Notes under the pieces: generated by a model
What the model was told of the DNA's origin: nothing
The model's input: the letters and a program-made list of their open reading frames with translations, nothing else
Database searches by the model: none
Made by a program: the position numbers and the translations under genes
Shown: piece by piece, positions 24,889 through 38,397 of the stretch
Layout: the number at the start of each line of letters is the position of its first letter
Numbering within the stretch: the stretch's first letter is position 1
Origin: Moheibacter sediminis
Lineage (GTDB): Bacteria > Bacteroidota > Bacteroidia > Flavobacteriales > Weeksellaceae
Length of the DNA: 64,000 nucleotides
NCBI RefSeq assembly: GCF_900176425.1
Contig: NZ_FWXS01000004.1
Span: forward strand, 1 to 64,000
Reading direction: 5' to 3'

Positions 24889-24909
24889 GCAAAATGAATT
24901 AAAAGCGAA

Positions 24910-24947
24910 TTTCTAACTTCGCACTTCTAATTTCTAACTTCTAATTT
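24910..24947. repeat. short CTAACTTCTAATTT repeat array
   Basis: Tandem variants of TTCTAACTTC/TTCTAATTTC fill the leader of the LOG-family gene. A closely similar array lies at 38365-38397 between sufC and sufD. Such arrays are not coding. Confidence 0.6.
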
Positions 24948-35619: not shown

Positions 35620-37077
35620 ATGAGCAATACAAAATATACAGAAGACGATTTGAGACAGGATTTGTCGAGCCGAAAAGAATACGAGTTCGGCTTTACAACC
35701 GATGTGGAATATGAAGAATTTCCCATAGGTCTCAACGAAGACATCGTTCGCGAAATTTCTAAACGCAAAGAAGAGCCCGAGTGGATGACGGAATGGCGTT
35801 TGGAAGCTTACCGCGAATGGCTCAAAATGACTGAGCCTGAGTGGGCAAATGTTCATTATGAAAAACCAAGTTTTCAGGACATTGCTTACTATGCAGCTCC
35901 CAAAAAGAAACCGGAACTCGCAAGCTTAGACGAGGTCGATCCTGAACTTTTAAGAACTTTTGAGAAATTGGGGATTTCCATTGACGAACAAAAACGTTTG
36001 AGTGGAGTAGCCGTTGATATTGTGATTGACAGTGTTTCCGTGAAAACCACTTTCCGTGAGAAATTGGGCGAATTGGGAATTATTTTCATGTCAATCAGTG
36101 AAGCCATAAAAGAACATCCTGAATTGGTAAAAAAATACATCGGAAAAGTTGTTCCGAGAACCGATAATTTTTATGCAGCATTGAATTCTGCGGTATTTTC
36201 TGACGGTTCGTTTTGTTACATTCCCAAAGGCGTTCGTTGCCCGATGGAACTTTCCACTTATTTTAGAATCAACCAAGCTGGAACCGGTCAGTTCGAAAGA
36301 ACCTTATTGATTGCGGACGAAGGTGCTTATGTTTCTTATCTGGAAGGATGTACAGCTCCTATGCGCGACGAAAATCAATTGCACGCCGCAGTTGTGGAAT
36401 TAATTGCGATGGACAATGCCGAAATTAAATATTCCACCGTTCAGAATTGGTACCCCGGAAATGAAGAAGGAAAAGGAGGTGTTTTTAACTTCGTAACAAA
36501 AAGGGGAGTAGCAGAGAAAAATGCAAAAATCTCTTGGACACAGGTTGAAACGGGTTCGGCAGTTACTTGGAAATACCCGAGCTGTATTTTGAAAGGAGAC
36601 AATGCAACGGGTGAATTTTATTCAATAGCAGTAACCAATAATTACCAGCAAGCCGACACTGGAACGAAAATGGTTCATATCGGTAAAAACACAAAATCAA
36701 CTATTATTTCAAAAGGAATTTCTGCAGGTAAGTCACAAAACAGTTACCGCGGATTGGTGAAAATGGGTGCCAATGCAGACGGCGCGAGAAATTTCTCTCA
36801 ATGTGATTCTTTATTGATGGGGAATGAATGTGGTGCACATACTTTTCCATACATCGAAATCAAAAACAAAACAGCCAAACTCGAACACGAAGCGACGACT
36901 TCCAAAATCGGGGAAGACCAATTGTTCTATTGCAACCAAAGAGGAATCGATACAGAGAAAGCAATTGCTTTGATTGTAAACGGATTCAGCCGTGAGGTAT
37001 TGGATAAATTACCGATGGAATTCGCAGTAGAAGCCAAGAAATTATTGGAAATTTCTTTGGAAGGTTCAGTAGGATAA
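35620..37077 (+). CDS. sufB: Fe-S cluster assembly scaffold SufB
   Basis: A 485-residue subunit of the SufBC2D scaffold on which Fe-S clusters are built. The N-terminal helical part ([26 protein letters not shown]) and the long right-handed beta-helix core are intact. The core has [42 protein letters not shown] and the characteristic C-terminal [44 protein letters not shown]. Length matches the family. It receives sulfur from SufS and assembles with SufC and SufD encoded downstream. The order is interrupted by the four-helix-bundle gene before sufC. Confidence 0.97.
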
Positions 37078-37094
37078 TTAAGTTTAATGTTCAA

Positions 37095-37112
37095 GGTTTA
37101 AAGTTTAAGGTT
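37095..37112. repeat. left arm of inverted repeat framing the four-helix-bundle gene
   Basis: GGTTTAAAGTTTAAGGTT. Its reverse complement matches 37507-37523 for 17 bases without mismatch. The next base begins the TTG start codon of the framed gene. The 8-mer GTTCAAGG just before it (37089-37096) recurs directly at 37493-37500. Confidence 0.8.
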
Positions 37113-37514
37113 TTGGCGACAATAGAAAGATTTGAAGATTTAGAAATTTGGAAAGAAGCTAGAATTATTTCCAAAAAAATCTTTGCAATTTCTACTGAAA
37201 CCGAATTAAAAACTGATTTTGGACTTAAAAATCAAATAAAAAATTTTTCAGGTTCTGTTATGGATAATATTGCTGAAGGGTTTGAAAGAGGCGGAAATCT
37301 TGAATTCAGACAATTTTTGTCAGTAGCTAAAGGATCTGCAGTAGAAACACGATCTCAATTATATCGTTTATTTGACTCAAATTATATTGAAAATGATAAA
37401 TTCGAAGAATTGAAATCTGATTTAGAAAAATTAAGTGGTAAGATTACCAATTTTATAAAATATTTAAACAATAATGATTTTAAAGGAAATAAGTTCAAGG
37501 AAGGACAACCTTAA
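37113..37514 (+). CDS. four-helix-bundle protein (23S rRNA intervening-sequence family)
   Basis: A 133-residue cytoplasmic protein of the TIGR02436 family. It has the family pattern FEDLEIWKEARIISKKIFAI, then LKNQIKNFSGSVMDNIAEGFERG, then EFRQFLSVAKGSAVETRSQLYRL. These are found in proteins encoded by intervening sequences in 23S rRNA and in free-standing genes across Bacteroidetes; related Avd proteins bind nucleic acids. The start is TTG (no ATG before residue 50, which is in the conserved core). The gene lies between sufB and sufC, with the left inverted-repeat arm touching its start and the right arm covering its stop codon. That argues for acquisition as a compact unit. It is unlikely to serve Fe-S assembly. 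Confidence 0.85.
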   Translation: MATIERFEDLEIWKEARIISKKIFAISTETELKTDFGLKNQIKNFSGSVMDNIAEGFERGGNLEFRQFLSVAKGSAVETRSQLYRLFDSNYIENDKFEELKSDLEKLSGKITNFIKYLNNNDFKGNKFKEGQP

Positions 37515-37537
37515 ACTTTAAACTTTAAACTTTAAAC
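37507..37537. repeat. right inverted-repeat arm plus TTTAAAC tandem array
   Basis: AACCTTAAACTTTAAAC (37507-37523) is the perfect complement of the left arm, and TTTAAAC repeats continue to 37537. The stop codon TAA of the four-helix-bundle gene (37512-37514) lies inside the arm. sufC starts 7 bases after the array. Confidence 0.8.
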
Positions 37538-37544
37538 AAACTAT

Positions 37545-38300
37545 ATGTTGTCAATTAACAATTTACACGCCCAAATCGAAGACGGTTCGGAAATTTTAAA
37601 AGGAATTAATTTAGAAATAAAACCCGGAGAAGTCCATGCCATCATGGGACCGAACGGTTCAGGGAAAAGTACGCTTTCTTCTGTAATTGCCGGAAAAGAA
37701 GAATATGAAGTAACCCAAGGAAACGTCGACTTATTTGGCGAAGATTTATTGGAAATGGGAGCAGATGAACGTGCACACAAGGGTGTGTTTTTGTCGTTTC
37801 AATATCCTGTAGAAATTCCTGGTGTGACCGTTACAAATTTCATCAAAACAGCCATCAATTCAACCCGAAAAGCACAAGGATTGGAAGAAATGGGCGCGTC
37901 GGAAATGTTGAAATTAATTCGTGAAAAAGCAGAGTTATTGGGAATTCGTAAAGATTTTCTATCTCGTTCTTTGAACGAAGGATTTTCTGGAGGAGAAAAG
38001 AAAAGAAACGAAATTTTCCAGATGATGATGCTCAATCCCAAATTGGCAATTTTGGACGAAACAGACTCAGGATTAGATATTGACGCTTTGAGAATCGTTG
38101 CAGACGGTGTAAATGCTTTCAAAAATGAAAATAATGCAGTTTTATTAATTACGCATTACCAACGTTTATTGGATTACATCGTTCCCGATTTTGTTCACGT
38201 TTTGTACAACGGAAAAATCATCAAATCCGGTAACAAATCATTGGCTTTGGAACTCGAAGCAAAAGGCTACGATTGGGTGATTGAAGAGGCGGCAGTTTAA
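37545..38300 (+). CDS. sufC: Fe-S cluster assembly ATPase SufC
   Basis: A 251-residue ABC-type ATPase. The Walker A motif is GPNGSGKST near residues 34-42, the signature is FSGGEKKRNEIFQ, and Walker B with the catalytic acid is LAILDETDSGLDIDALRI, where the usual SufC DSGLD replaces DSALD. The switch His is in LLITHYQRLLDYI. It powers conformational change in the SufBCD scaffold. Length and motifs are normal. The start ATG follows the TTTAAAC array by 7 bases, so the promoter-distal part of the operon must be transcribed through the inserted unit or from within it. Confidence 0.97.
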   Translation: MLSINNLHAQIEDGSEILKGINLEIKPGEVHAIMGPNGSGKSTLSSVIAGKEEYEVTQGNVDLFGEDLLEMGADERAHKGVFLSFQYPVEIPGVTVTNFIKTAINSTRKAQGLEEMGASEMLKLIREKAELLGIRKDFLSRSLNEGFSGGEKKRNEIFQMMMLNPKLAILDETDSGLDIDALRIVADGVNAFKNENNAVLLITHYQRLLDYIVPDFVHVLYNGKIIKSGNKSLALELEAKGYDWVIEEAAV

Positions 38301-38340: not shown

Positions 38341-38397
38341 TTTAGAATTAGAAAAAAGAGAAATCTAACTTCTAACTTCTAACTTCTAATTTCTAAA
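38341..38397. repeat. CTAACTT array with opposing arm between sufC and sufD
   Basis: TTTAGAATTAGAAA (38341-38354) is close to the complement of the end of the array CTAACTTCTAACTTCTAACTTCTAATTTCTAAA (38365-38397). The array resembles the one at 24910-24947. Together they look like an empty counterpart of the repeat structure around the four-helix-bundle gene. Confidence 0.55.

Follow-up and report, generated by a model that had tools for sequence, protein, structure and literature searches.

What kind of unit occupies the gap between sufB and sufC in Moheibacter sediminis, where a small four-helix-bundle gene is set exactly between two inverted repeats, and how did it come to lie inside an operon? 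To our knowledge, how S23-bearing intervening sequences move is an old open question. The stretch analysed, referred to below as the window, comprises 64,000 nt (contig NZ_FWXS01000004.1, positions 1 to 64,000), and the features of the locus are collected in Table 1; here and throughout, host gene names (sufB, sufC, argC, groES and others) derive from the reading of protein sequences.

Table 1. Coordinates of the S23 unit and its host genes in the window.
Feature	Position	Strand	Description
sufB (upstream host gene)	35620..37077	+	ORF of 485 aa; name from protein reading; same upstream gene in relatives
Left arm	37082..37112	+	heptads GTTTAAT GTTCAAG GTTTAAA GTTTAAG GTT; coding strand G-rich
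S23 / four-helix-bundle gene	37113..37514	+	133 aa, TTG start; PF05635, TIGR02436
Right arm	37507..37537	+	heptads complementary to the left arm; contains the S23 stop codon
sufC (downstream host gene)	37545..38300	+	ORF of 251 aa; probe for filled/empty sites in relatives

The S23 gene and its arms in the window

The original prediction described a 17-bp inverted repeat framing the gene, and a perfect repeat of that length is indeed present at 37096-37112 against 37507-37523, its left coordinate having been set one base too far left (37095). It forms the core of the longer, imperfect arms of Table 1, which are 31 nt long and 90% complementary and are built of tandem heptads (GTTTAAA/GTTTAAG and variants); the right arm was recovered independently as a period-7 array by the array scan. 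The inverted repeat is therefore real, but the term is too narrow, since the arms are heptad arrays with a word that varies between units. The arms reach a match score of 47, attained by none of 4000 dinucleotide shuffles and by none of 402 sites of the same spacing elsewhere in the window (maximum 31 in both cases), and the inverted arms in the sufB-sufC gap are not a chance product. In the predicted RNA fold of the unit, 29 bp form between the left and the right arm. As had been noted, the ORF starts at the base adjoining the left arm, and the right arm contains the TAA stop of the ORF (37512-37514); the TTG start is backed by homologues, which begin with TTG in L043 (genome G001) and with ATG in L049 (G002) and L040 (G003). 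The claim that GTTCAAGG recurs directly on both sides stands insofar as two copies exist (37089-37096 and 37493-37500). The second copy, however, is located within the S23 ORF and is no flanking repeat, and the pair is intact in no relative examined, L043 having the ORF copy only, L049 the left copy only and L040 neither; for these two reasons GTTCAAGG is ruled out as a target duplication.

S23 is the sole ORF of the unit, which encodes no transposase. Its product had been read as a member of the 23S rRNA intervening-sequence (IVS) family, and profile matches bear this out, with PF05635 at E=3.6e-30 (104.8 bits against a curated cut-off of 33.8) and TIGR02436 at E=4.6e-27 (94.4 bits against 24). 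No transposase family of Pfam or NCBIfam matches S23; in Pfam, the only matches are PF05635 and a sub-threshold one to Erp_C. The AlphaFold2 model of the window protein (pLDDT 89.6) matches the structures 2gsc and 2rld, both with five chains per entry, and, more weakly, the Avd protein of diversity-generating retroelements (DGRs; 4dwl and 8ube; TM 0.65-0.71, E 0.03 and above). A Xanthomonas relative of S23 forms a homopentameric ring (Lin et al. 2006, cited in PMC4990558), and the available text of PMC4990558 describes the function of the S23 protein as not known. A role as a defence gene was considered and rejected, as none of three S23 proteins had a match in PADLOC.

A search of the host genome for other copies with the same arms had been proposed. 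The genome contains two PF05635 genes in all (E <= 0.001), the second of which lies between argC and argD in operon direction, with inverted heptads of a different word on its two sides (GTTTTGA type; arms and gene names assigned by eye). Heptads without an S23 gene are found at about 15 further places in this genome, mostly intergenic, and a heptad pattern scan returned 20 matches, its control with the reversed pattern 5. Within the window, the following gap of the operon, sufC-sufD, is partly taken up by a solo heptad array of the CTTCTAA type (38364-38396), and a further solo array is located at 24908-24947.

Filled, empty and moved sites

On one account of the locus, S23 would be an ordinary vertically inherited operon gene and its arms a local hairpin regulating sufB-sufC. 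Gene and arms are indeed common to G000, G001 and G002, all of the same genus, at this position, and orthologous sites are often retained (331 same-site pairs at 60% or above). Against this, the sufB-sufC gap of G003, also of this genus, is empty (79 nt), and yet a homologue (L040) is present in that genome after a miaB-like gene, between arms of a related word. Moreover, among 30 sufC loci from 40 family genomes, 7 are filled, 12 are empty and 11 have a different gene upstream of sufC; the filled ones comprise three window-type and four type II units (one with an in-frame stop), one gap being filled by different S23 subfamilies. At groES-groEL, 20 of 30 genomes from four genera are empty, 9 are filled and 1 has a remnant. 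S23 units occupy as many as 118 distinct host gene pairs, and 358 unit pairs of at least 60% protein identity are located at different sites. Gene and repeats, consequently, do not sit at the same place in all relatives, and both empty sites and other copies exist, the two signs of mobility that the original prediction had named. Empty sites and moved copies refute the vertical account unless they are mis-assemblies, which leaves it highly improbable.

The boundaries of the moved segment coincide with the arms. In four related units at three sites, similarity ends at the outer arm ends, and the match between a cyanobacterial plasmid unit and one at another site is confined to 416 nt. The cleanest cases come from cyanobacterial plasmids, where a 428-bp insertion in Trichormus and Scytonema can be set against empty plasmids of Aulosira, Nostoc linckia and Tolypothrix, with flanks about 97% identical and GTAAT at both ends of the insertion (a 5-bp duplication). 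A 417-bp insertion in the Nostoc C052 plasmid is accompanied by an imperfect TTCT duplication; at a third plasmid site, a clear duplication was not seen, and the window copy itself has no clean empty site. Of the first six cyanobacterial plasmid units, five have inverted arms and three are antisense to their neighbours. The comparison of sites shows that arms and gene move together and that sites occur filled and empty. Mobility, as judged by this comparison, is well supported, and the unit at 37082-37537 is almost certainly mobile, in keeping with the earlier proposal of a mobile unit bounded by inverted arms inside an operon, which is backed by empty sites and by related arm-bearing units at unrelated sites.

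Some loci hold more than one unit or a broken one. In two other genera (L190, 2277-2670; L172, 2418-2676), a window-type S23 homologue is located in the sufC-sufD gap and a type II S23 is also present, in sufB-sufC. At sufB-sufC of G025 (L181 and L197), a type II S23 has an in-frame TGA and is still framed by octad repeats. Internal stops or an odd length are seen in 19 of the 305 units overall.

S23 is very common, with at least 584 matching stretches in one genome scan. PF05635 is found in 6 of 6 genus, 84 of 100 family and 157 of 198 phylum genomes, and a query with the type II subfamily (motif GTSIGANIREAQ) finds matches in 70 of the 100 family genomes, of which the lowest-scoring may belong to type I. 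The set examined comprises 305 distinct units, identical ORFs being counted once and L051, L052 and L072 (broken or unclear starts) being left out of the arm comparison and the pooled set. In 291 units both neighbours are visible; 269 of these share the orientation of both, two groups of 8 are mixed and 6 are opposed to both; in the first set of 113, two lack one neighbour and 110 of the 111 others are co-oriented on both sides. The gene pairs occupied by co-oriented units include groES/groEL, carA/carB, argC/argD, sdhA/sdhB, fadB/fadA and sufB/sufC. Outside Bacteroidota, 37 named loci under 23 phylum names (three unassigned), mostly from metagenome assemblies, were sampled; 21 of 31 are co-oriented with both neighbours, 10 are mixed and none is opposed to both, the arm score is at least 28 in 26 of the 37, and the period is 7 in 25 and 8 in 4.

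Such co-orientation (269/291) would fit spread via an RNA intermediate, in which S23, as a fold relative of DGR Avd, would work with a reverse transcriptase and insertion would follow the orientation of the host transcript. The resemblance of the S23 model to Avd is in line with this, as is the match of L061, not shared by the window protein, to PHROG 3206 'Avd protein of DGR' (E=5.5e-12). Selection for host transcription, however, explains co-orientation equally well. In addition, a PF00078 search detected reverse transcriptases in just 29 of 100 family genomes and none in S23-rich ones such as G077 (17 copies), G009 and G027 (11 each), antisense units are found on cyanobacterial plasmids (L496, L498, L499), and the cleanest insertion site bears a 5-bp duplication. 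An RNA intermediate is on this evidence quite unlikely. Dependence of S23 on a reverse transcriptase of the same genome was rejected, 71 of the 100 family genomes having no PF00078 match, and such an enzyme seems not to be needed.

A few contexts are unusual in other ways. The S23 unit of the Nostoc edaphicum plasmid pNe_5 (L496) lies antisense between the ribonucleotide reductase beta and alpha genes, with near-perfect TAGGGAG arms. In the Anabaena sp. 90 plasmid pANA02 (L500), a type I-D CRISPR locus carries an S23 unit between its cas6 and cas4 genes, where the unit follows a long repeat array spanning about 300 nt. Twelve loci with S23 genes come from IMG/VR viral contigs (L252-L263), several of them antisense to their neighbours. 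No rRNA match was found at 20 other loci picked for unusual context.

Paired arrays and solo arrays

The arms of the window unit are an instance of a general architecture. A unit's own left and right arms match with a mean score of 31.1, against 17.2 for arms taken from different units, and 79 of 110 own pairs exceed the 95th percentile of cross pairs. A score of at least 28 is reached by 72 of 110 S23 genes, whereas 73 control genes with co-oriented neighbours on both sides all stay below it, the top-scoring control (27) being itself an S23 gene. Periodic flanks were detected in 231 of 305 units; among the periods searched (4-12), only 7 (n=162), 8 (n=63) and 9 (n=6) were found, with most often 4-5 repeats per arm. 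The 74 units with no significant period, like the 38 of the first 110 scoring below 28, are decayed or of another kind. The arrays have a polarity: where skew is clear among the 305 units, the nearest left array is G-rich in 117 cases and C-rich in 14, and the nearest right array is C-rich in 129 and G-rich in 7.

The repeat word varies from unit to unit, yet agrees between the two arms of one unit, period-7 words being 1.5 letters apart within a unit and 3.2 across units. The period is far more stable: mapped on the protein tree of 219 units, where columns are few and many forks weak, it changes 16 times against 58.9 after shuffling, and among different-site pairs of at least 60% protein identity it is common to 240 of 258. 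In contrast, the distance between words grows as proteins diverge, from 0 at 80% identity or above (one pair only) to 1.76 and then 2.60 in different-site pairs, and it is at about the random level at 50-60%. It follows from these comparisons of period and word that arms travel with the gene, that the word drifts in step and that the period remains constant; across the units compared, the arms are shown to retain complementarity and period while the word drifts.

In predicted RNA folds of 50 units, a check that had also been proposed originally, at least 15 arm-arm pairs form in 43, and in 8 once the right arm is swapped. The arms of the antisense strand fold equally well (41/50), and the arm mismatches, 121 G.U against 190 A.C, display no wobble excess in the sense RNA. 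Because G.U pairs are not in excess among the mismatches, a constraint acting on the sense RNA through wobble pairs is not supported.

Flanks that match in direct orientation (score of at least 28) occur in 13 of 80 named loci. Most of the 10 such units that were read, L264 being left out as its ORF duplicates L057, have an additional hairpin or array next to the gene, and in the automatic scan of 305 units a pair of G-then-C arrays lying to one side of the gene turned up in 5 cases only. In L283, L293, L311, L208, L317 and L332, an extra heptad hairpin or array stands directly before or after S23, as if nested.

The repeats are not unique to the S23 unit, since solo arrays outnumber S23 arms: in S23-bearing family genomes, 105 kb of intergenic DNA contain 24 arrays of 7-9 nt period, of which 20 are solo and 4 are S23 arms. 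The window together with L161 contains three intergenic arrays, one of which is the right arm of the window unit. This abundance could reflect generic replication slippage, the S23 gene being a passenger that recombines between arrays and its protein being unrelated to the repeats; same-period solo arrays are common in S23-bearing genomes, and one survey is cited as describing heptamers as the commonest kind of simple repeat in most of the genomes covered (Mrazek et al. 2007, cited in PMC4679880). S23-free genomes, on the other hand, contain a single array, an A/T-rich stretch, in 85.5 kb of intergenic DNA, a figure drawn from only nine genomes that are partly related and four of which are GC-richer. 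Furthermore, the same word and a fixed polarity tend to mark both arms, and entry into an existing array should leave direct rather than inverted flanks. Slippage with a passenger gene is, on these grounds, unlikely, though somewhat less so than an RNA intermediate.

A gene-less heptad-array hairpin (AGTTATA) stands between co-oriented genes in G077 (L143:2613-2723), and it matches the arms of an S23 unit in its own genome better than the arms from any of 14 other genomes. More generally, solo arrays match S23 arms of the same genome with a mean best score of 27.6 against 22.2, the set sizes being different, and the same-genome likeness of solo arrays and S23 arms is suggestive. In S23-free groESL gaps, 5 of 21 exceed the 95% limit of their own shuffles, a weak sign of gene-less hairpins.

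Known systems and the proposed element

Compared with a DNA transposon, the unit has terminal inverted repeats, in the form of tandem arrays rather than a fixed sequence, and no transposase. Its protein model shares a fold with DGR Avd at the scores given above, but, unlike in a DGR, no reverse transcriptase lies beside the window unit: the window's contig has no PF00078 match, and the only one in the genome is on another contig. REP/REPIN sequences with RAYT, and MITEs, are short intergenic inverted repeats that spread with a genomic protein gene, with gene-less hairpins beside gene-bearing units. The S23 units differ from these in that S23 matches no transposase family and in that the arms are tandem arrays with variable words.

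Some rRNA IVSs contain no ORF. The IVS in the 23S rRNA of Coxiella burnetii, of 428 nt, has an S23 ORF and complementary borders and is excised by RNase III (Warrier et al. 2016, PMC4990558); tandem heptamers GACAGAT, whose number varies among strains, precede its S23 start ATG (PMC4990558). The operon units resemble it in their S23 ORF, in their size (417-428 bp in the clean plasmid pairs against 428 nt), in their complementary borders and in the heptamers upstream of the S23 start. Conversely, IVSs are described in the available text of PMC4990558 as residing in 16S and 23S rRNA genes, whereas the operon units lie between protein-coding genes in many phyla and have heptad arrays on both sides. 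The window unit thus has the S23 ORF and the heptads before the S23 start, but it lies in sufB-sufC and not in rRNA; because that location defines an IVS, the operon units are intervening-sequence-like and not IVS members as the available text of PMC4990558 defines them.

TAACTGA heptamer arrays have been reported in Beggiatoaceae, cyanobacteria and some Bacteroidetes (MacGregor 2015, PMC4679880); a protein that binds the repeats is considered there as a candidate for the mobile element (PMC4679880). As far as the available text of that paper goes, the arrays are, like the arms of the operon units, tandem heptamers located between genes, in many cases immediately ahead of a start codon, but, unlike the arms, they consist of one word and are almost always direct; 'S23' and 'helix bundle' do not occur in its main text. 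Among the titles and abstract openings retrieved by searches of open-access PubMed Central, none links S23 to paired heptad arrays or operon gaps, and for TIGR02436 those searches retrieved no paper.

Taken together, the window unit is probably, and with good confidence, a copy of a widespread mobile element in which an S23 gene lies between complementary tandem arrays of 7-9 nt, and which inserts as a whole, persists in transcribed operons and decays in place. The element would enter short intergenic gaps as a complete unit, and copies would persist mostly where the host operon transcribes them before decaying where they lie. S23, as a homopentamer like its solved relative, may bind the repeats, perhaps one per subunit, an arrangement that would suit the 4-5 repeats per arm, and the arrays may depend on it for their spread or upkeep; on balance, an action of S23 on the repeats is somewhat favoured. 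In the operon mRNA, the arms would form a long stem with the S23 message in the loop, which RNase III could cut as it does the 23S rRNA IVS; by this analogy, processing of the insert has about an even chance, and host genes might tolerate the insert because it is removed from the mRNA. The DNA itself may be moved in trans by an enzyme of the host or of another mobile element, a guess that we would put at roughly one in two.

A broader and more tentative proposal, which we hold to be possible but short of probable, is a transposase-less class of elements across phyla, in which each subunit of the ring-shaped S23 pentamer would read a single repeat of 7-9 nt, in either arm, and the pentamer would drive insertion, array growth and the spread of gene-less arrays. 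The protein would then set the period and leave the word free, and rRNA IVSs would be the few copies that landed in rRNA.

The finding is larger than the first reading of the locus, in that it appears to concern a family of mobile units of unusual arm design in operon gaps across bacteria, and the genomes compared suggest that a family of mobile DNA nested in the operons of many phyla has been mostly overlooked. If this is true, the rRNA copies would make up just a small, conspicuous fraction of a large family located between the genes of core operons, and its members would be marked in a way unlike the usual terminal repeat, with a conserved period, a free word and arms that change in step. 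The movement of intervening sequences would become directly testable in harmless laboratory bacteria, and many of the unusual heptamer arrays in S23-bearing genomes might be accounted for by the same element.
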